A DNA stretch of 48,122 nucleotides from Calothrix anomala FACHB-343 (GTDB taxonomy: Bacteria > Cyanobacteriota > Cyanobacteriia > Cyanobacteriales > Nostocaceae), in NCBI RefSeq assembly GCF_014696435.1, contig NZ_JACJQG010000075.1, forward strand, positions 1 to 48,122, in the 5' to 3' direction. This document shows positions 9,758 to 42,279 of this stretch, in pieces (positions within the stretch are counted from its first letter, which is position 1; the number at the start of each line of letters is the position of its first letter). The notes under the pieces were generated by a model. That model did no database searches. It worked only from the letters and a program-made list of their open reading frames with translations, and was not told where the DNA came from. Both the position numbers and the translations under genes were made by a program.

Positions 9758-12700
9758 TCACGAACCAGCACAATAGGGTGCAGCCTGTTGAGATGTTACA
9801 TAAGTCACATCAGGCGCTTGTTTAACTAATTCCACCGTACCATTAGCATTAACTATCCACCCTTGCGCCTCAACTATTCTAGTAGCCTTATCATTATTTT
9901 CAGGTAGATTTGCTTTGTTAATTCCCCTGGCTGCTTCTATACCATTATTACCAGCAATTACAGCAAAATTACGTAAATCATGCCAAGAATTTTGACTGTT
10001 GAGGATGTGAGTAGGATTTTGTGGTAATCCATCTCTCCCTGTAATCACAAATTGATTGTCGCGGTTGCGCTTACAACTAGCAACTACTTGCTGAGAAACA
10101 TCAATTAAATCTTGCGGTAATTCTTGGATACTAATTTTATTATCTGCATCTGGGTTAGTTACAGTTACAACCCCATCAACGCCAAATTGCGAACTCGCAT
10201 CAATTTCACTATCGGGAGTTAAAAATATACCATTAGTGGAAATAAAAATATTACCACCATTTCCCAAAACAGCATTAGCGCGGATATCGCTATTATTTGC
10301 ACCGACAACAAACCGGGAATTAATAAAAATATCACCACCACCCCCTGTACTGTCGGTAACGCTACTACTAATTAGGCTATTGTTACGTAATAACAGTAAA
10401 TTACTATTCAGCCTAATTGAACCACCACCCGATTGAGTGGAAGTAGCGATAACTTGACTTTCATCGGTGCGAATTCGGTTAGCATCAATAAAGATATCAC
10501 CAGCTAAACCTGAACCAATACTACTAGTACTAATAAATGCGCCGCTATTTAATTCCAACAAATTAGTATTAGCGCGAATTGTACCGCCATTCGCAGTACC
10601 TCTAGTTTCGGCAGTAATTGCACTACCATTACTAGCCATAATTGACGATTGAATATTCAGTTGAATATTACCACCACCACCTTTCCAAGTTGATGCATTA
10701 ATACTACTGGGGATTTCTGAATTATTATTCAACATTTCTAACCAGATAGCATTAATTTGAATATCCCCTGCTGCACCATCTCCTGGAGAAATACTTTGAT
10801 TACGACTGCGAAAATTACTTGCAGCAATAGTCGCACCATTAGCGATGGTTAATTTTTCAGTATTAATAGTTAATTTACCACCATTTCCCTGACTAATAAC
10901 CTGGCTATTAGCGTTATTACTAGCATTACTAAATATGCCACTACTAGCGCTAGATATAAAACCATCTAAACTAATATCTTTTGCCTGAATAATCAATTCT
11001 CCAGCGTCACCTTTACCAAAAGTGCTAGTGGCAATTTGTCCAGCATCTTTTAAAGATAGAATATCGGTATTAATCGTTAATTTACCACCACTACCCGTAG
11101 CGTTAGTCTGAACATCAGCCGCAATAGCTGTCGGTAATACATTACCTTCTTTACTCTGAATTTCTATATTTTTAGCATCAATATCTATCTGTCCAGCATT
11201 ACCTGAACTGTTAGTTTTAGAAACTATAGCACCACCATCAAATAACTTTAAATTTGCCGTTTCAACTCTTAGCAGTCCACCATTACCTGTGGCATTTTCT
11301 TCAACATTGCTAAATAAGCCACTAGCAAATTTTCCGGCAACTGTGCCGCTAATTTCTATATTGTTAGCAATAACTTCTATTTTACCAGCATTCCCACCCA
11401 GATTAGTATTATTCCCAATCTGCGCCCCATCTTTTACTGCTAAAGTATCAGTTTTTAAATAAATATTACCACCATCTCCATTAGAGTAAGTTGTCGCTAA
11501 TAAAACACTAGCAAATTCATCAAAAGCAGCACCAATTATTTGAGTTTTTTTGGCAGTAATATTAATATCGCCACCCTTACCGCCACCCGGCCAACTAGTA
11601 GTTGAAATTTGTGCGCCATCACTAATTAAAAGATTTTCAGTAACAACATTAACTTTGCCAGCATCGCCACTACCAGAATCAGTATTAGCAAATATCCCAC
11701 TAGGCCCTAAAGGCCCGCCAAAAATTAGTTCTATATCGCTAGCCTGAATATTAACTGTACCGCCAGTTCCAAAGCCAAAGGTATTACTACTAATTTGTCC
11801 GCCATCTGTAGCAATTAATTTGTTAGTAGTAATATCAATGATGCCACCATTGCCTGTTGCGCCTGTAGAAACATCAGTAGAGATAATAGTAGATAATCCT
11901 GAATCAGGATTAAAGCCATTTACCTGTAGCAATTCTCTGGCATTAATCAGAATCGCACCTCCATTTAAACTGCCTTCTGTATTGGCTAAAATTGCCGAAC
12001 CATCAGTTACATTTACGTTTCTACCCATTACTTGAACATTACCACTTCCCTCTCCACTAACATCAATAGAAGCGGCTTTATTTAAGTTAATATCTAAAAA
12101 ACTATTCACACCTGGATAACTTAAAGATAAACCGGAATTTGTGGAATTAATAGTAACTAAACTATCTTTAACAGCAGCAATTTCTACTCTACCTTGAGCG
12201 GCAGTCACATTACCACCCACGAGAGAAACTTCACCACCGACTAATGCTAAAGTTTGCCCAGATGGTACCGCTATTCCTACAGGTCTATTATCTCTAGAAG
12301 TGGCAAAAAATTCATCAATAAATAGTTTATTACCATCTCCATTGACGATAATTCCACCGGGATTTGCGCCATACTGTAAACCTACAGGAGTATTGATAGT
12401 TAATAAAGGTGCTGCTTGGGGATTAACTGCACTATAAATACTGCCATCAGCAAATTTAATACTATCAGCAGTGCTAGCAAAAAAAGAACCACCAATATTT
12501 AAAGCGGCGTTAGCACCAAAAACAATACCATTGGGGTTAATTAAAAATAAATTGGCAGTACCATTAGCCCGAATTAAACCATTAATATCCGAAATAGAAC
12601 CACCAGTAACACGACTAATAATATTAGAGACATCTACATCATTTTTAAACCAAGCTGTGGTGTCTTTGAGGACAGAAAACTGTGAAAAACTATGAAATAA

Positions 12701-31737: not shown

Positions 31738-32151
31738 GTGCCCGAAACAAGAGTTATTTTTTATCAAGATCGAGATGGCGTAGCTCCGGTTCTGGAATGG
31801 CTGAAGATGCTGCTGAAGCAAGATCGTAAAGGCTATGCCAACTGTGTGGCTCGCATTCAACAACTGGCAAGTACAGGTTACGAATTGCGACGACCTGCGG
31901 CAGATTATCTGCGTGACGGAATTTATGAATTACGGGCAAAACATGTCCGGGTGCAGTATCGCATTTTATACTTCTTTTCTGGACAGAATGTAGCGATTTT
32001 AGCTCATGCGATCGCGAAAGATGAGAATCAAGTCCCTGATATGGAACCTGATATGGAAATTGAGCGAGCGATTCAGCGAAAGACTGAATTTGAAGTCAAT
32101 CCAGCAATTCATACCTACACAGAGGAAATAGAAAATGGCTCAGACAAATGA
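31738..32151 (+). CDS. higB: HigB/RelE-like toxin (phage Gp49-type)
   Basis: 137 aa, GTG start at 31738 (AAGG about 11 nt upstream). The core VIFYQDRDGVAPVLEWLKML...ELRRPAADYLRDGIYELRAKHVRVQYRILYFFSGQNVAILAHAIAKDE matches the HigB/Gp49 branch of RelE-like mRNA endonucleases. About 30 residues after AKDE are extra and acidic (MEPDMEIERAIQRK). The end overlaps the next gene by 17 nt. Divergent from vapB with a 119-bp gap that must hold both promoters. Confidence 0.88.
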   Translation: MPETRVIFYQDRDGVAPVLEWLKMLLKQDRKGYANCVARIQQLASTGYELRRPAADYLRDGIYELRAKHVRVQYRILYFFSGQNVAILAHAIAKDENQVPDMEPDMEIERAIQRKTEFEVNPAIHTYTEEIENGSDK

Positions 32152-32464
32152 TGCACTGAAGATTCTGCAACAAATGACTTCTGAAGATCCGGAAATGGCG
32201 GAAATGATCGAGGAATCTTCATTAAATGCAGAACTGGCACAACTTATTTATCATGCTCGGAGGCAAGCAGGATTAACTCAACAGCAACTTGCCGATCGCA
32301 TTGGCACAAAACAGTCGGTGATTGCGCGGCTAGAAGATGCTGAGTATGAGGGACATTCGCTTTCCATGCTGCAAAAAATTGCTTATGCGCTTAATCAAAG
32401 GTTGGAGGTTCATCTGATTCCCATCGCGCCTGATGAAAATCACACTGAACAGCGTAGTGCATAA
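32135..32464 (+). CDS. higA: HigA-like XRE-family antitoxin
   Basis: 109 aa, ATG at 32135 with AGAGGA at 32121-32126. An N-terminal acidic arm (TSEDPEMAEMIEESSLNAELAQLIYHARR) precedes a helix-turn-helix (AGLTQQQLADRIGTKQSVIARLEDAEYEGHSLSMLQKIAYAL). It is typical of the antitoxin encoded after the toxin in HigBA operons. It would repress its own promoter and neutralise the toxin. Confidence 0.9.
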   Translation: MAQTNDALKILQQMTSEDPEMAEMIEESSLNAELAQLIYHARRQAGLTQQQLADRIGTKQSVIARLEDAEYEGHSLSMLQKIAYALNQRLEVHLIPIAPDENHTEQRSA

Positions 32465-33855: not shown

Positions 33856-36800
33856 TTACTGAGCAGGTAAGAGTTTTTTAGCTAGTTCTAGTGCAGCTTG
33901 TTTTGGACTTATAAAATTGAAACCTAAGGTCAGATGCTGCGGTTGCCCTTTCATAAACACAACCTCGATAGCCATCATAACACTACCGCCTTGTGTAGCT
34001 TGCAGTGAACCTTCAAACTGTGCAGACTTAACATCCAGCAGTCCCCCTAAGCCAACCTCAGCAATGAATTGACCAACAGTCGCCATCGCTCCAACAGACT
34101 TTTTAATGCCTTCTAACGAAAGGATGGCAACCTGCAATGCACCGGTTGCTGTTTCACGAGCGGTAAACAAACCAACTATCCGAGGATCAGCGTCAATCGG
34201 GAAGGTTTTAGCACCCTCTTCAATGCCCCGCAATGTCAGTTTTGCTAATTCAAGGGCACCATTCGCTGTTTCACGGGCAGTAAACAAACCAATGATACGA
34301 GGATCGGCATCAATGGGAAAAGTTTTGGCTCCTGCTTCGATACCGCGCAACGTTTGTTTAGCGACTTCTAATACTCCATTAGCAGTAGCTTTGGCAGCTT
34401 CAATTCCTCCAATTTTCGTATAAAGAGCTGCGATTTCAGAGCCTTTAGCTGCGGCATAAGCTGAGAACTCTGCCCATCGGTAGGACTGTTGATACCACTT
34501 TGAACTATCGAACCAACGCCTTTTATCTGCAATATCGCGTTCAAGTTGAGAAATACGACTCTTAGTACTATTAATTTCGTTTTGAAGTTTATCAACCTCA
34601 GCTTGGGCACTCCTAACTGCGTTCTGAGCGTCGCGTAACCGTTGCGTATCGCGATTGCGCTCACCCTGGATGGTATTTCTCATATTGTCAATATCACGGT
34701 TGAGCTTATTGACTTCATTCTGAGCTTTGCTGACTTCCGCTTGAGCAGTTTGTAACCGACGAGTATCACGTTCGCGCTCACCTTCAATGATTTTTCGCGT
34801 TTCTGCAATAGTGTTGTTTAGCTTATTGACCTCATTTTGGGCTTTATTGACCTCATTCTGAGCTTTCGTCAGTTCGCGAGTGGCATCATCGGCAGCAGAT
34901 TGAATCGCAGCAGTAGCTTCCTTTCGCAGGTAAGAAAGCAGATCATTTCTCATGCTTGCCTTAACCCAGATACCGCTACTACTCTTAAAGTCTGCACCCT
35001 TCACTTCCAGGTTAGCCTCGAATAGGTTAAATATTTTACCTTGGGTCAAGAAGTAAAAGCCACTATCTGAGAAACTTAACTGGGTTTCGCTGACCAACCC
35101 CAAAAGTTCAACAGCACCCGAGATATCTATCTTAGGAGACACTGTTGGGTTTGGCGACAGTTTGAAGTAAAGGAAGGCGTTCGGTTGTCCACTTGAGCCT
35201 TTCAACTTAAAGATGCCGCCGACGTTAATCGGCTCAACTTCAGCTTTCAGTTCTGTGCCTTCAAGGTAGTCAATCGAGAGGGAAGCTGTCGCCCGTAGCC
35301 CCCAGAAGTTGAGAGTACCACGTAGGTAAAAGCCCTGCTCAAAGGTTAACTCACCAATGCTAGTGGGCTGGGGCACAATGTAAATGTTGACGTTTTCAAA
35401 GCCAATTTTTAGAATCGTACTCGCGACAGAGCTGGGAATAGCCCGTGCCACAGATGCACCACAGAAAGTATTTATCACATCCATCAAGTAGAGGCTGTTG
35501 AAAGCGATCGCCAACATACTCCGACTGGGCATGGCAGAGTCAAATTTAACAGCGACAGCACCTTGGAAGTTTCCTACTTGAAGAGTACCAGCAATGCCGA
35601 TAGTGGGTAGCGGTGGTGGAAAGCTCACCCCTAAATCCAGGGCAACATTGCCGATCATCACACCTTTTGTGCCAAAGGGTTCATTCCATAAGCCGACCAT
35701 TGATGCCTGAAAAACAGCAGCGCGAGGCTGCACCTGCATTCCACCGACAAAAGCCAGAGTACTATTATCAAGGATAGCAGTGACCGCACCCAAGAGCGTC
35801 AACGAAAAATTGCTGGGTGATGGCTGAAGTCGGAACTGAATATCCCCAAAAGCAACACCTTCCGACAGTTTGAACTCACCATCAATTTGCGCTTCCAGCA
35901 AAATGTCGGATGGATTACCCCCAATTGCCGTTTTGACTCGCACTTGCTCAATACCCAGAAGAGCATCAACCCCCAGCCCTTGCATATTCAAATTGGCGAT
36001 AAAGTTAAGACCGCGAATCACCGCTATATCTGATCCAACTTCATCCAGGCTGGTTAGGGTTAATGTCCGGTCATTTGAGGATGAAAGCACCATTGCTGTA
36101 TCTGAAAACCTCAGCCCATCCAACACACTTAATTCCTTTGCAATGGTGGAGAATTTCCAAGAAGTTGGAGGCAAAAAGCCAACAACAAATCCCCAATCAC
36201 TGGCGATTTTCTTGACCAAGAGTTCTACTATCCCTAAGGGAGAGTCAGCTTTAAGTGAGAAAAATTTACTTTGGGGAGCAATCGTAATCGCAATATTTTT
36301 GAAATCAACGGCTAGAACACTTGTCGGTATGGGAATATCGTGCAGGATACTACTGCCACATAGACTCTGCAAAATAGGCGACAATTTTAGGGCAGGCACA
36401 TTGCTAGTTAATACAAACTCGCCAGGGAAGGTGTAATTACCGCGAAATGAACTACCAGCCACTTTAAGTTCGCCACCAATGGCTCCAGTTGCTACTTTTT
36501 TGCCATTTTCAACCAAAGTTCGATTGAGGGTGAGGGTAATGTCATCAAGTTGCAACCCATTAATCCCTACAGGAATGAGCCAGGGTTCCATCGCGGCGGC
36601 ATTGACTTTAAATTCGCCTGTTTTGGGAGTTAGAGTCAGCGCTAGTTCAGTTAAATCTAGATTTGGTACTTCATTGGGTAACGAGATCAAACTCCCCATA
36701 AGTCTATCCACCAGAGCTTTGAGGGAGATACGTTGTCCTGGCGTAATTTCGCCCGCAAAGACTAAGGCGCGATCGCTGCTATAGTTACTGGTTAGGAGTA

Positions 36801-37704
36801 GTTTTGTTCCATTTATATCAACAGCACTATTGAACTTTGCAGTGACTACTTCTCCAACAGAGTCAATCTGACCTTCAATTGCAGTCAGAGCTAAAGTAGC
36901 ACCGCCCAGATCGATATCCCAATCATTCACCAATGTAAAAGCCGCATTGTAGATTTTAGCTTTCGGTTGGGTGACAAGGCGCAGAGTCTGAAGTACACTC
37001 CTCGGCAACTGTGATGGATCTAGCGGTAGGGATGCTAATAAATCAGCAACAGTAAGTTGACTCCCCTCCCTGAGTCCACCTTCGATCACTAGATCTGGCA
37101 ACAGGTTGCAGGTTGTATCTAGCGTGCTTGCACCTAATGTCATTGAACCTGTAGTAATTACTTGAGTTACTTTTTTGTTAAGTAATTCCAATCCAAGTGT
37201 AATTTGCTCGAGTACAGGCAGACTAAGCCCTACAGACTTCAAACTTTCGGTCAGGCTGCCAATACCCATCAGCATAGCTAATTCAGCAAGCTGGGGCATA
37301 TCGTTTGAAGTAACCGTCAGCATTAGAGTACCGCTATTTGGATCTGATAACGAACCTTGTACAGCCAGGCTGCGATTGCCGACTTGGAGATGAAATGCTC
37401 CATCCAAATCTAAAGTTGCACTAAGTTTGTCATCTTTTCCTTGGGTTAGGGTCAATGCAATTTTGTTTACCTCTAAATTGCCTGCTCCATTGGCAGCGAT
37501 AGGGTAAACAAGGGGTTCAGTCATCGACACTCGCAGAGAATCTTCATCGGGCTGAGAAAGTTGAACAGTATCCAGTTTACTCTTGCCCATAACCCCATTA
37601 AGAAATTCAAGAATTGCTGTGGAGTTAACGGAAATTCCTTGTATCGGGTTTACTTGCTGCAACAGGTTGGACTCAATCTTTTTCTTGGTTTCGCTTAGAT
37701 TCAT
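33856..37704 (-). CDS. Giant beta-rich and coiled-coil protein of unknown function
   Basis: 1282 aa, not recognised as any named family. Residues 1-920 are a series of imperfect beta-strand-rich units of about 120-190 residues with recurring features: a Pro-rich turn (IPTSVLAVDFKNIAITIAPQ; IPSSVASTILKIGFENVNIY), a Leu-rich strand pair, and LxLxxx patterns. Residues about 925-1058 form a coiled coil with NEVNKAQNEVNKLNN-type heptads. Then RRWFDSS (about 1059-1065). Two 39-residue tandem repeats plus a partial third follow, each with the core PIDADPRI (about 1111-1207), and a final beta domain GLLDVKSAQFEGSLQATQGG. No signal peptide is seen. I recall a similar C-terminal layout in large uncharacterised bacterial and fungal proteins. 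It is encoded downstream of a small coiled-coil gene sharing its motifs. Confidence 0.6.
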   Translation of the reverse strand: MNLSETKKKIESNLLQQVNPIQGISVNSTAILEFLNGVMGKSKLDTVQLSQPDEDSLRVSMTEPLVYPIAANGAGNLEVNKIALTLTQGKDDKLSATLDLDGAFHLQVGNRSLAVQGSLSDPNSGTLMLTVTSNDMPQLAELAMLMGIGSLTESLKSVGLSLPVLEQITLGLELLNKKVTQVITTGSMTLGASTLDTTCNLLPDLVIEGGLREGSQLTVADLLASLPLDPSQLPRSVLQTLRLVTQPKAKIYNAAFTLVNDWDIDLGGATLALTAIEGQIDSVGEVVTAKFNSAVDINGTKLLLTSNYSSDRALVFAGEITPGQRISLKALVDRLMGSLISLPNEVPNLDLTELALTLTPKTGEFKVNAAAMEPWLIPVGINGLQLDDITLTLNRTLVENGKKVATGAIGGELKVAGSSFRGNYTFPGEFVLTSNVPALKLSPILQSLCGSSILHDIPIPTSVLAVDFKNIAITIAPQSKFFSLKADSPLGIVELLVKKIASDWGFVVGFLPPTSWKFSTIAKELSVLDGLRFSDTAMVLSSSNDRTLTLTSLDEVGSDIAVIRGLNFIANLNMQGLGVDALLGIEQVRVKTAIGGNPSDILLEAQIDGEFKLSEGVAFGDIQFRLQPSPSNFSLTLLGAVTAILDNSTLAFVGGMQVQPRAAVFQASMVGLWNEPFGTKGVMIGNVALDLGVSFPPPLPTIGIAGTLQVGNFQGAVAVKFDSAMPSRSMLAIAFNSLYLMDVINTFCGASVARAIPSSVASTILKIGFENVNIYIVPQPTSIGELTFEQGFYLRGTLNFWGLRATASLSIDYLEGTELKAEVEPINVGGIFKLKGSSGQPNAFLYFKLSPNPTVSPKIDISGAVELLGLVSETQLSFSDSGFYFLTQGKIFNLFEANLEVKGADFKSSSGIWVKASMRNDLLSYLRKEATAAIQSAADDATRELTKAQNEVNKAQNEVNKLNNTIAETRKIIEGERERDTRRLQTAQAEVSKAQNEVNKLNRDIDNMRNTIQGERNRDTQRLRDAQNAVRSAQAEVDKLQNEINSTKSRISQLERDIADKRRWFDSSKWYQQSYRWAEFSAYAAAKGSEIAALYTKIGGIEAAKATANGVLEVAKQTLRGIEAGAKTFPIDADPRIIGLFTARETANGALELAKLTLRGIEEGAKTFPIDADPRIVGLFTARETATGALQVAILSLEGIKKSVGAMATVGQFIAEVGLGGLLDVKSAQFEGSLQATQGGSVMMAIEVVFMKGQPQHLTLGFNFISPKQAALELAKKLLPAQ
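34105..34374 (-). repeat. 117-bp tandem repeat inside the giant gene
   Basis: Period 117 bp (39 codons), two full units (start points about 34141 and 34258) and a partial third. They encode TANGVLEVAKQTLRGIEAGA...PIDADPRIIGLFTARE and its near-identical next copy. DNA identity between units is high but not perfect, so the duplication is not very recent. Confidence 0.85.
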
Positions 37705-37842
37705 CCTGCTTTATCCTCAAATAATTGGTTTACGTCATCTAAAATTTAGAGATGTCTTTACAAACAAATCCGCAAGTCAATTCATCACTTAGAGGTATGT
37801 CTTACTAAGTGTTATGTTCTGGAGTAGGACTGTGAGAAATCC

Positions 37843-38403
37843 TTATAGAGCCTTGGCAATCTCTTCCGCTTGGGCGGCTTTTAGTTCATCTTGAGCTGCC
37901 TGAAGAGCTAATTCAGCTTCAATTAATCGAGGATCTGATTCGATGGGATTGTTATAAACTCCCTCACGAAACGCTTCAAGCTGGATCTTACTTTTCTCTA
38001 AATTTGTGATTGCAGCTAGTTTCTCTTGCTCAAGCTGGCTAATTTTGGCTTCACCTTCAGCAATGGATTGACTTCGCCAATTGATTTCAAAGTCTAACTT
38101 TTCGCGTTCTTGTGATTTTTCTATTTGAGCAATACTGCTATACCACCGCTTCCATTCATCAATTTCATGTTTACGCTGTTTACACTCTTGTTTTTCTCTA
38201 TTAATTTTGTTCTCTACTTTCTCAAGCTGCATTTCTGCTTTCAGAATGTCAGCTTTGATTACATCTTCTGATCCCGGTACATTAGCTCTTTCATCTTCGA
38301 TTTGCAGTCTAAGCTCTGAGAGCACACTAGTCAGAAAAACAACATTTGCATGAGCTGCCTGCACTCGATCTGTAGGAGATGGAGAAGTCGTTTGTTGAGC
38401 CAT
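37843..38403 (-). CDS. Coiled-coil protein sharing motifs with the giant protein
   Basis: 186 aa, mostly helical coiled coil (residues 20-80: SELRLQIEDER...ILKAEMQLEKVENKINREKQECKQRK). It contains KRWYSS (85-90) and PIESDPRLI (153-161), and a helical tail ALQAAQDELKAAQAEE. The first motif and the PI[DE]xDPR[IL] motif are 68 residues apart, exactly as in the giant protein (RRWFDSS to PIDADPRII), and the intervening parts align without gaps. It lies 138 bp upstream of the giant gene on the same strand, so co-transcription is likely. Function unknown; a paralogous partner is the simplest idea. Confidence 0.65.
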   Translation of the reverse strand: MAQQTTSPSPTDRVQAAHANVVFLTSVLSELRLQIEDERANVPGSEDVIKADILKAEMQLEKVENKINREKQECKQRKHEIDEWKRWYSSIAQIEKSQEREKLDFEINWRSQSIAEGEAKISQLEQEKLAAITNLEKSKIQLEAFREGVYNNPIESDPRLIEAELALQAAQDELKAAQAEEIAKAL

Positions 38404-38766: not shown

Positions 38767-41700
38767 ATGGAGTTTGCACAGGCACAGGCGATCGCTAACT
38801 CTGCTGTCAATCAAAAGCTCGCTAGAACCCTGACTGAGGTGGAAATTGCTCTGTTGTTCGGTGCTTGTAATAACTTGACCTATGAGGAAATTGCCGATCG
38901 CTCTGGGTATTCTATAAACTACTTACAGCGAGATATCGGCCCTAAGTTCTGGAAGCTTCTCAGTGATATCTTTGGTCGCAAAGTTAACAAAACAAATCTG
39001 CGTGGTATTCTGTCTCAATTTACTCCCCCAATCACAGATAGCCAACCGCAAATTCCCCGTTGCGTAGATTGGGGTGAGGCGATTGATGTTTCTCACTTCT
39101 GCGCTCGTGAAGCAGAAATAGAAAACCTGAGTCAGTGGATAATTGCAGAACGCTGTCGCCTCATAGCCCTGGTGGGAATGGGTGGGATGGGTAAAAGTGC
39201 TTTAGCTGCTAAAATTTCTCAATTGGTACAAACAGATTTTGAATTTGTAATTTGGCGCAGTCTCCGTAACGCCCCACCCTTAGAAACTTTATTAGCTGAA
39301 CTGGTTGCTTTCCTTTCCCAACAGCAAGACAGCCAAGGAAAGTCAGAACGGTTGCTGCACTGGCTGCGAACTCATCGCTGTTTGGTAATTTTGGATAATC
39401 AAGAGACAATCTTACAACCAGGCGATCGCGCTGGCTACTATCAGCCAGATTTCCAAAACTATAGCGATTTGTTGCGATCGCTGGGAGAATCGAGTCATCA
39501 AAGTTGTATTTTACTCACCAGTCGGGAAAAATCTGCGGAAATTGCCATTTTGGAAGATTGGAATGGCGGAGTGCGATCGCTTTCTCTCAAAGGTTCCTGG
39601 GCAAGTTCCCTAAAATTAATTGACTCTAAGCAACTTGTGGGAAGCGAAGCCCAAAAACGCCAACTGTGTGAATTTTATAGTTGCAATCCCCTAGCAGTAA
39701 AAATGATTGCGGCTTCGATTCAGAGTTTGTTTGCTGGGGAAATTAACGCCTTTTTACAGACAGAAACCCTGGTATTTAACGGTATCCGTCGCTTGTTAGA
39801 GCAACAATTTGAGCGTTTATCATCTCTAGAACAGACAATTATGTATTGGTTGGCAATTAATCGCGAATGGACTGCGATCGCTCAACTAGAAGCAGATATT
39901 GTCCCTGCGGTTTCTCGCGCTAGTTTGTTAGAGTCCCTAGAATCGCTCACTTGGCGCAGTTTCATCGAAAGGCGATCGGGTGAATATACCCAACAGCCCG
40001 TGATTATGGAATATGTCACAGATTGTTTAATTCGCCAGCTTGTCAGTGAATTATTAATACTTAAAACATCCTTTTTTAACCATTATCTAATTCTAAAAAC
40101 AACTGTTTTAGACTATATCCGCGAAAGTCAGATTCGCTTAATTATCAATCCAATAATTGAAAAATTAAAAGCGGCATTTCAGCATAATTTTGCACAGTTA
40201 GAGCAGCATTTAAAATCGGTTTTGCTGGCATTACGTAACGATCCAGAATCAACCTTTGGTTATGGAGTAGGAAATTTTATTAACCTGTGTCTGCGCCTAA
40301 AAATTGACCTCACTGGCTATGACTTTTCCCATCTGAAGATTCGCCACGCAGATTTCCGGGGTGTGCGGTTAAAAGATGTTAATTTTCAATTTGCTCATTT
40401 TGCTCAATCTACCTTTACCCAACTCTTTGCAGGTGGAGTATCTGCAAAATTTAGTCCTGATGGGCAGCAATTTGCTGTTGGCGATACCAAAGGAGAACTG
40501 CATATTTTGCAGGTGGAAGGGATGCAGCCATTAATATCGATCCAGGTACATCAAGGCTGGATTATGGGCGCTGATTGGCATCCTGATGGCACAATGTTAG
40601 CTAGCGGTGTCGATGGCGTAGTCAGCCTTTGGGATGCCCGCACAGGTCAAAAACTGCGGGACTTGCACGGCTATAACAGTTCCATTTTGGCATTAGCCTG
40701 GAGTCCCGACGGTAAATATGTAGCCTGTGGCGGGCAACAGTCCTTACTTGTGGTTTGGAATGCTATCACTGGAGAGCATTTGACTGAGCTTGGAAGTAAC
40801 TCTGGCGATCGCAGTTGCTGGATTATGAGTCTGGCATGGTTAGCGGATGGGGCAGTGCTGGCAGGAGGCTATACGGATAGCACGATTAAATTTTGGGATG
40901 TGGTGACTGGCGAGTGTATTCGCGTAATTTCAGACCGTGAAAATTGGGTTTTTTCTGTGGCAATGCATCCCAATGGCAAAATCATCGCCAGTAGTGGGTA
41001 CGATAAAACCGTTAAACTTTGGAATTGGCAAACAGGGGAATGTTTGCAAGCCGTTAACACCCAAGAGCCTTTTTATCAATTAATGTGGAGTCCGGATGGC
41101 GAGAGACTAGCAGGGGGAAGTATGAATGGTTGTGTTGTCAACCTGTGGGATTGCTCTTTGCAATGTCTAAAAGTGTTGCAGGGACATGAAAACTGGGTTT
41201 GGTCAGTTTCTTGGAGTCCGGATGGCAGCATCCTTGCTAGTACATCTTTCGATCAGGTGGTTAAATTGTGGAATACACAAACCTGGCAATGTGTCAAAAC
41301 GTTACGCGGCTACAGTAATTCATCTTGGTGTGTCCGGTGGAGTAACGATGGCATTCGTCTGTTGACCGCTAGCACCAACCATACAGTGCAACTGTGGGAT
41401 GGTCAAACAGGGGAATGTCTGAGAGTTTTTTGCGGGCATAGCAACGAAGTGATGTTTGTTGCCTGGAGTCCAGACGAACGCTTAATGGCAAGTGGCAGTG
41501 GAGATACCACTGTTCGCATTTGGGATGTGCAGACGGGGGAATGCTTACAGGTGTTGCAGGGACATCAAAGTTGGGTAAGGGGAGTCACCTGGTGTCGGGA
41601 TGAAAATTGTCTGATTAGTTGCGCCAGTGATGGAGCGGTAAAACTTTGGGATACTCATTCTGGGCAATGTTTATTAACTCTGTCAGGGCATAGTAGTCTG

Positions 41701-42279
41701 GTAAATTCCGTTGCTTGGTGTTCTGTAGGCAATCAAGTTGCCAGTGGAGGTTTAGATGGAACTGTTCGGTTTTGGGATTTAAGCCGTGGTGTTTGTTCTC
41801 GCGTCATTTCTGTGGGTCGTTTCATCGGTAGCGTTGCCTTTAGTCCAGACGGCAAAACCTTAGCCAGTGGAGACTACGACGGTGTAGTTCAACTTTGGGA
41901 TGTGGCTTCTGGAGAGTGTTTAAAAACCTTCCTGGGGCATACAAATGGGCGGATTTATTCAGTGGACTGGAGTGCCGATAGCAACAAAATTGCAAGTACC
42001 TGTACTGATAAAACAGTGAGAATCTGGAATGTTGACACGGGGGACTGCGAACAGATTATCCAGGGCAAAAATCACGGAATGTCGGTGCATTGGCATCCAG
42101 TCAAGGACTTACTGGCGATCGCATTTTTAGAACAACCAATTCAAATTTACGATCTGCAAATCGGTGAAACTGTGCAAACTTTAAGCAGATATCTTCCCTA
42201 TGAAGGCGTCAATATTAACGGGGTAAAAGGAATTTCTGAGGGGCAAAAAATGAACCTCAAAGCATTAGGAGCTATTTAA
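38767..42279 (+). CDS. STAND (NB-ARC-type) ATPase with N-terminal vMAP-like HTH and 14 WD40 repeats
   Basis: 1170 aa. Residues 20-83 (LTEVEIALLFGACNNLTYEEIADRSGYSINYLQRDIGPKFWKLLSDIFGRKV) resemble the vMAP N-terminal helix-turn-helix region. The NB-ARC domain has Walker A VGMGGMGKSA (136-145) and Walker B CLVILDN (205-211). A helical region, then a short pentapeptide-like bridge (HADFRGVRLKDVNFQFAHF) leads to 14 WD40 repeats (about 556-1150), enough for two seven-bladed propellers. By analogy with NLR/STAND proteins the WD40 half would recognise a ligand and the ATPase would oligomerise. The effector would be external, as no nuclease or peptidase domain is fused. TAA stop abuts a MITE end. 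Confidence 0.85.
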   Translation: MEFAQAQAIANSAVNQKLARTLTEVEIALLFGACNNLTYEEIADRSGYSINYLQRDIGPKFWKLLSDIFGRKVNKTNLRGILSQFTPPITDSQPQIPRCVDWGEAIDVSHFCAREAEIENLSQWIIAERCRLIALVGMGGMGKSALAAKISQLVQTDFEFVIWRSLRNAPPLETLLAELVAFLSQQQDSQGKSERLLHWLRTHRCLVILDNQETILQPGDRAGYYQPDFQNYSDLLRSLGESSHQSCILLTSREKSAEIAILEDWNGGVRSLSLKGSWASSLKLIDSKQLVGSEAQKRQLCEFYSCNPLAVKMIAASIQSLFAGEINAFLQTETLVFNGIRRLLEQQFERLSSLEQTIMYWLAINREWTAIAQLEADIVPAVSRASLLESLESLTWRSFIERRSGEYTQQPVIMEYVTDCLIRQLVSELLILKTSFFNHYLILKTTVLDYIRESQIRLIINPIIEKLKAAFQHNFAQLEQHLKSVLLALRNDPESTFGYGVGNFINLCLRLKIDLTGYDFSHLKIRHADFRGVRLKDVNFQFAHFAQSTFTQLFAGGVSAKFSPDGQQFAVGDTKGELHILQVEGMQPLISIQVHQGWIMGADWHPDGTMLASGVDGVVSLWDARTGQKLRDLHGYNSSILALAWSPDGKYVACGGQQSLLVVWNAITGEHLTELGSNSGDRSCWIMSLAWLADGAVLAGGYTDSTIKFWDVVTGECIRVISDRENWVFSVAMHPNGKIIASSGYDKTVKLWNWQTGECLQAVNTQEPFYQLMWSPDGERLAGGSMNGCVVNLWDCSLQCLKVLQGHENWVWSVSWSPDGSILASTSFDQVVKLWNTQTWQCVKTLRGYSNSSWCVRWSNDGIRLLTASTNHTVQLWDGQTGECLRVFCGHSNEVMFVAWSPDERLMASGSGDTTVRIWDVQTGECLQVLQGHQSWVRGVTWCRDENCLISCASDGAVKLWDTHSGQCLLTLSGHSSLVNSVAWCSVGNQVASGGLDGTVRFWDLSRGVCSRVISVGRFIGSVAFSPDGKTLASGDYDGVVQLWDVASGECLKTFLGHTNGRIYSVDWSADSNKIASTCTDKTVRIWNVDTGDCEQIIQGKNHGMSVHWHPVKDLLAIAFLEQPIQIYDLQIGETVQTLSRYLPYEGVNINGVKGISEGQKMNLKALGAI

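Follow-up and report, generated by a model that had tools for sequence, protein, structure and literature searches.

Gene arrangement

The window analysed here, a stretch of 48,122 nucleotides from Calothrix anomala FACHB-343 (contig NZ_JACJQG010000075.1), contains a gene for a protein of 186 residues, here called the small protein, upstream of a gene for a protein of 1282 residues, here called the giant. Both are encoded on the minus strand (Table 1). Each protein carries two short motifs, and the motif pairs, which an earlier sequence-only reading of this DNA had pointed out, are real and separated by 68 residues in both cases (giant: 1062 to 1130; small protein: 85 to 153). Judging from sequence comparison and predicted structures, the small protein very probably corresponds, as a separate protein, to the antiparallel coiled-coil hairpin of the giant, to which it is homologous; the motifs would form the turns on either side of a single helix whose length is fixed.

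The second motif occurs twice in the giant (at 1130 and 1169), as part of a tandem repeat of 39 residues whose copies are alike in 34 of 39 amino acids and 88 of 117 nucleotides; the sequence-only reading had overlooked this second copy. A self-comparison with a 12-row profile revealed no internal repeats above 0.7% probability in the first 930 residues. No stretch of 19 residues exceeded 1.6 in a simple hydropathy count of either protein (maxima: giant 1.57, small protein 0.96). In the gap between the two genes, a consensus scan detected neither a terminator-like site nor a minus-strand promoter-like site, and the RNA folding of this gap was no better than that of shuffled sequences (z 0.06). 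The shared strand and the short gap lacking a terminator-like site are compatible with one transcript.

Sequence similarity of the two proteins

BLASTP aligned residues 56-178 of the small protein with residues 1033-1155 of the giant, 123 residues without gaps at 27.6% identity, in agreement with the gap-free alignment at low identity that had been reported before. The Smith-Waterman score of the two proteins was 148, with maxima of 78 in 1000 plain shuffles and 94 in 1000 heptad-class shuffles. At an expect value (E) of 0.001 or lower, the small protein matched only itself and the giant (E 7.6e-9) in the 9.2 Mb genome of 144 contigs. Its half with the motifs (residues 85-186) scored 86, the best of 1000 shuffles reaching 63, and its first half (residues 1-84) scored 65, a value reached by 7 of 1000 shuffles. 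The turn motif PI-x-x-DP-[RE] recurs in seven other giants (loci L065, L074-L078 and L087). The alignment, the shuffles and the turn motif in related giants support the proposed homology of the small protein to the coiled-coil part of the giant.

Table 1. Features of the two-gene locus and the adjacent gene, in coordinates of the window; residue numbers refer to the encoded proteins.
Feature	Position	Strand	Remarks
Giant protein gene	33856..37704	minus	1282 residues: N-terminal part, conserved beta-rich core, coiled-coil hairpin domain, C-terminal beta cap
Giant C-terminal beta cap, residues 1217-1282	33859..34056	minus	Conserved in related giants; low-confidence strands in model
Giant coiled-coil hairpin domain, residues 921-1216	34057..34944	minus	From model
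Giant PIDADPRIV, residues 1169-1177	34174..34200	minus	Extra tandem copy of second turn
Giant PIDADPRII, residues 1130-1138	34291..34317	minus	Second hairpin turn (1126-1134) in model; PIDADP also in related giants
Giant RRWFDSS, residues 1062-1068	34501..34521	minus	First hairpin turn (1067-1069) in model
Giant core, residues 560-890	35035..36027	minus	Common to relatives from other phyla and to RTX giants; W673, P676, G678, G703, D722, P778, G829 and others conserved
Gap between small and giant genes	37705..37842		138 bp
Small protein gene	37843..38403	minus	186 residues, four helices predicted
Small protein PIESDPRLI, residues 153-161	37921..37947	minus	Turn at 152-157 in model
Small protein KRWYSS, residues 85-90	38134..38151	minus	Directly before turn 91-92 in model
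NTPase-WD40 gene	38767..42279	plus	Divergent neighbour; similar plasmid proteins annotated NB-ARC

Predicted structures

The AlphaFold model of the small protein had a mean predicted local distance difference test score (pLDDT) of 87.5 and a predicted template modelling score (pTM) of 0.59. It consisted of helices at residues 10-40, 46-90, 93-151 and 158-185, joined by turns at 41-45, 91-92 and 152-157. Residues 490-1282 of the giant were modelled with AlphaFold without the small protein, a Kangiellaceae protein described below being the sole second row of the alignment; helices were predicted at 921-1066, 1070-1125, 1135-1165 and 1174-1216. In means over 10 residues, the pLDDT of the hairpin was 60-89 for approximately 940-1149 and 46-57 for approximately 1150-1209. 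The overall mean was 40.8, and the beta part failed.

The giant turns at 1067-1069 and 1126-1134 mapped to residues 90-92 and 149-157 of the small protein (1062 being aligned to 85). Both motifs were thus placed at helix turns, in matching positions of the two predictions, and the models bear out the expectation of a shared local fold. The spacing of 68 residues would be constant because the shared motifs stand at either end of a single helix. In the PDB, the small model had many matches (Rad50, SMC, dynein, a Tc toxin chain and others), which were read as generic helical hairpins. For the beta part of the giant, sequence and profile searches against solved structures yielded weak matches only, nearly all of them in the coiled coil.

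Related giants

The C-terminal 221 residues of the giant matched 7 of 218 genomes of the family, namely the window's own, G533, G534, G538, G591, G671 and G435, while a search of eight genomes of the same genus with the C-terminal part gave no match. When 388 genomes of the order were searched with a profile, six gave matches (the window's own, G435, G591, the newly found G763, G091 and G771); the matches in G091 and G771 were weak and contained internal stops. The related giants comprised 1825 (L074), 1830 (L075) and 1829 residues (L078), each with a LamG-type lectin domain, or 858 (L076) and 856 residues (L077), and the one at L065 was cut by the contig end. The related giant in G763 (L087:5840-8478) was spread over two frames that overlap, which points to a broken gene or else to an error in the sequencing.

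The PI-x-x-DP turn and a similar C-terminus were present in all seven relatives, preceded by a coiled coil in the six uncut ones. P130-P135 and 27 more columns were invariant among the seven sequences of alignment A9; the eighth sequence, L087, has PIELDP. In place of RRWFDSS, a two-cysteine loop was found in five aligned full-length relatives and, by eye, in L087. The sequence-only reading had described the C-terminal part of the giant as a coiled coil and had overlooked the beta cap that follows. The window giant belongs to a bacterial family that has no name and a patchy distribution, with a core, a coiled-coil hairpin and a beta cap.

Wider family sharing the core

The core was also common to Haur_5003 (Herpetosiphon aurantiacus plasmid pHAU01), to plasmid proteins of Hymenobacter tibetensis and Mycetohabitans rhizoxinica, and to a protein from a metagenome-assembled genome (MAG) of the Kangiellaceae, with E values from 4e-17 to 3e-28. 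Like the window giant, the Kangiellaceae protein has a coiled coil; it aligns to the C-terminus of the window giant, but it lacks PIDADP. In this relative (L025:8339-12226), tandem helical units of approximately 19 residues, recognized by eye, stand where the PIDADP hairpins would be. The plasmid proteins of Herpetosiphon, Hymenobacter and Mycetohabitans, unlike the window giant, have helical tails of a different kind (by eye). Beside these four proteins, no similar small gene was present in the stretches examined.

Proteins of approximately 816-933 residues in genomes of the same family (L033, L034, L037) contained the core as well, and so did very large RTX-repeat proteins (L019, L030, L031), of which L019 adds DUF4347 and Ig-like domains. 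The association with RTX repeats suggests an extracellular role for the core in these RTX-carrying proteins. In Hymenobacter (L028:9656-17929), genes for a glycosyl hydrolase 108 and a SLOG/SLATT protein come after that of the core protein; the Mycetohabitans relative, too, has a glycosyl hydrolase 108 gene in its vicinity. Viral relatives were not found in three scans of viral contigs or in a search of phages with the giant.

Neighbouring genes

The divergent neighbour encodes a nucleoside triphosphatase (NTPase) with a WD40 part, which we take to belong to the STAND class. The best 10 of its 367 plasmid matches (39-45% identity, Nostoc first) were all from cyanobacterial genera, in line with a cyanobacterial host. 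An NTPase-WD40 gene lay within 2 kb of the giant gene in five of eight loci, namely the window, L065 (in a split frame), L074, L076 and L077. Such genes are common: in seven genomes, each had 28 to 119 candidates at a first look. By density alone, with the mean density assumed for G763, the chance of five in eight was 6.7e-5, that of four in seven, with G538 and G591 merged, 8e-4, and that of three in five, with further merging, 3.6e-3. The distance of 2 kb and the count of five in eight were picked after the loci had been inspected. Since the test is post hoc and both the orientations and the NTPase types differ among loci, we regard the link to NTPase-WD40 genes as a lead only.

At L065:5605-10083 and L074:1-4677, the same neighbours flank giants with differing ends. 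The NTPase-WD40 genes of these two loci are 68% identical (the one at L065 being split over two frames), and the other shared neighbour is presumably a pyridoxamine-oxidase-like gene. At positions 31738-32464 of the window, a Gp49-like (DUF891) gene overlaps a second small gene, which is helix-turn-helix (HTH)-like; we take the two to be a likely toxin-antitoxin pair.

Distribution and origin of the small gene

A similar small gene was found at the 5' side of the giant in none of the seven judgeable loci (L025, L074, L075, L076, L077, L078 and L087); L065 was left out of this count because its contig ends inside the giant. A conserved pair is therefore not supported: the recurrent adjacency that would have counted in its favour was not observed and, as far as sampled, the two genes were never adjacent elsewhere, which the sequence-only reading had itself named as the outcome that would count against it. 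On those stretches, tblastn with the small protein hit the giant itself or nothing, except for one piece at L077 (E 0.049); on fetched stretches this search does detect the coiled coils of the giants, with E values of 2e-5 to 0.046. Searches of general genome-contig and plasmid collections with the small protein gave no relative.

The sole close relative that turned up was a fragment in G131, a genome of another family of the same order (L016:7977-8414, minus strand). It reads KRWPSS and then PLGEDPRL at a spacing of 47, three heptads shorter. The score of the fragment was 115 with the small protein, 54 with the window giant, 39-72 with six other giants and 51 with an unrelated coiled-coil open reading frame (ORF). 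It is nearer to the small protein than to any of the giants tried, and the small gene is therefore unlikely to be a recent local copy. A separate small-protein lineage probably exists, and the small gene would represent an old side lineage. The frame of 186 codons has stayed open at 24-27% identity to its homologue, which would point to selection acting on it.

Interpretation

The explanation we prefer combines a stand-alone hairpin homologue, a giant of an unnamed family and docking of the two via the hairpin; taken as a whole, we put it somewhat short of an even chance. The hairpin of the giant, situated between beta core and beta cap, would be an arm for docking or oligomerisation, against which the small protein would pack its matching hairpin. 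The small protein might then serve as accessory subunit or, by competing, limit the number of giants that assemble. Docking through the hairpin is the likeliest function we can suggest, although, taken by itself, it is a tentative and rather doubtful proposal. We found no evidence of the filament, scaffold or tube of mixed-length subunits that had been envisaged for the pair.

Several observations weigh against this explanation. An unrelated coiled coil (L006, a 515-residue frame), which was a weak match found among 195 genomes and served as a control, scored 115 against the small protein, the best of 500 shuffles reaching 98; a second control (L013) scored 78, which 1 of 500 shuffles reached. 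Since the L006 control beats its shuffles, coiled-coil likeness alone is not diagnostic, and this control together with the half-by-half shuffles means that the case for homology rests on the turn motifs. A profile of the small protein and the giant (A3) matched 16 of 386 genomes (the window's own, G435 and 14 others, L049-L062), and PI-x-x-DP-[RE] was absent from the 14 other loci. This absence would speak for the explanation, but 13 of these 14 matches stop before the place of the motif in the profile, so that these loci test the motif little. At L077, a coiled-coil ORF of 242 residues (9943-10671) lies directly upstream of the giant on the same strand and holds the piece with E 0.049. It lacks the motifs, its score of 60 against the small protein was reached by 89 of 500 shuffles, and the gene preceding it is presumably ParA-like. 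At E ≤ 0.01, the small protein matched only the G131 fragment in 16 genomes (eight of the same genus, seven giant-bearing and G131), a weak negative because the search also missed the coiled coils of the giants themselves there. In three giant loci (L075, L078 and L087), the ORFs as we read them include no WD40 gene within 2 kb of the giant.

Alternatively, the small protein may be an old, independent coiled-coil lineage that acts alone, its place beside the giant being left from descent or transfer without any joint work. We consider this a plausible reading, if one with the balance tilted against it. It accords with the G131 fragment, which is nearer to the small protein than to any giant tried, with the giants elsewhere that have no small neighbour, and with the absence of G131 from the 10 genomes, out of 195, in which the giant had a match (the non-matching genomes of that set are not all named, and the same number came from the same order). 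However, the small protein scores higher against the window giant (148) than against the seven other giants tried (71-88), the [KR]RW[FY]-SS turn is common to these two proteins where five relatives have the cysteine loop, and the small gene lies 138 bp upstream of the giant on the same strand.

It is improbable that the small gene arose by a recent partial duplication of the coiled-coil segment of the giant and is drifting to loss. An intact copy was found in the window genome only, the eight same-genus genomes match neither the C-terminal part of the giant nor the small protein, and the G131 piece looks decayed; the identity is nevertheless just 24-27%, the reading frame is uninterrupted and the turns have been preserved, and with the G131 fragment closer to the small protein than to the giant, the split is probably older than the window genome. 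We would hold out equally little hope for a more elaborate scheme, in which the giants would be effectors controlled by the adjacent STAND-type NTPase-WD40 proteins, and the hairpin would have been released in the window lineage as a separate subunit gating giant assembly. Convergence of two unrelated coiled coils is the least probable; the score of the L006 control above all 500 shuffles and the generic PDB matches would fit it, but the second turn motif is common to seven other giants, two motifs share an identical spacing and the helix ends agree in two models.

With the small protein read as a stand-alone hairpin homologue, the striking coincidence in spacing gains a structural reason, namely one helix between two turns. 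The comparison also uncovers a group of related large proteins, spread over several phyla, that lack any Pfam or NCBIfam model we could find. Should it bind the hairpin, the small protein would be an easy way into the function of the giants.

Comparison with known families and systems

The statement that neither protein has a recognizable family name held: no Pfam or NCBIfam match among those listed exceeded its curated cut-off, and none was found in PADLOC, whose anti-phage defence models gave 0 families at E ≤ 1e-5 for either protein. One PADLOC model matched the NTPase-WD40 neighbour, at residues 872-1008, which belong to its WD40 part. SMC and Rad50 proteins were rejected as relatives; SMC_prok_B reached 28.4 bits on the giant (cut-off 567), and the match was confined to the coiled coil. 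The HBL-type alpha-helical proteins of Bacillus were likewise rejected (Pfam HBL, 18.4 bits on the giant vs a cut-off of 29.1), HBL being absent from the Pfam matches listed for the small protein. A lipid-transfer groove of the AsmA/VPS13 kind would be a purely speculative reading of the beta part of the giant, and a match of AsmA to the small protein (18.5 bits, cut-off 29.8) was read as a chance match of the coiled coil.

Large proteins with DUF6603 (PF20248), such as a 1531-residue frame in G094, resemble the giant in being large and in coming from genomes of the same taxonomic order, and a short stretch aligns to residues 199-335 of the giant at 27% identity. As the family of the giant, DUF6603 was rejected: it was not among the best 25 of 30 Pfam matches (so no better than E 0.6), it had 0 matches in G000, and its profile comparison with the giant gave 0.1% probability. 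For the coiled-coil hairpin proteins CT398 and HP0958, the Z score was within the chance range of the tool for helical bundles. The CT398-like hairpin family PF24481 reached 16 bits on the giant (cut-off 27) and was not among the matches listed for the small protein. Among the matches listed in a literature search, no work on the giant family was present, and none on DUF6603.

The HET-S / NWD2 pairs of fungi, gene pairs of an effector and a STAND protein, are defined by a motif common to both partners (PMC3321046). The likeness to the giant loci is that a gene has the gene of a STAND ATPase as its neighbour; the difference is that orientation and NTPase type vary among the giant loci.
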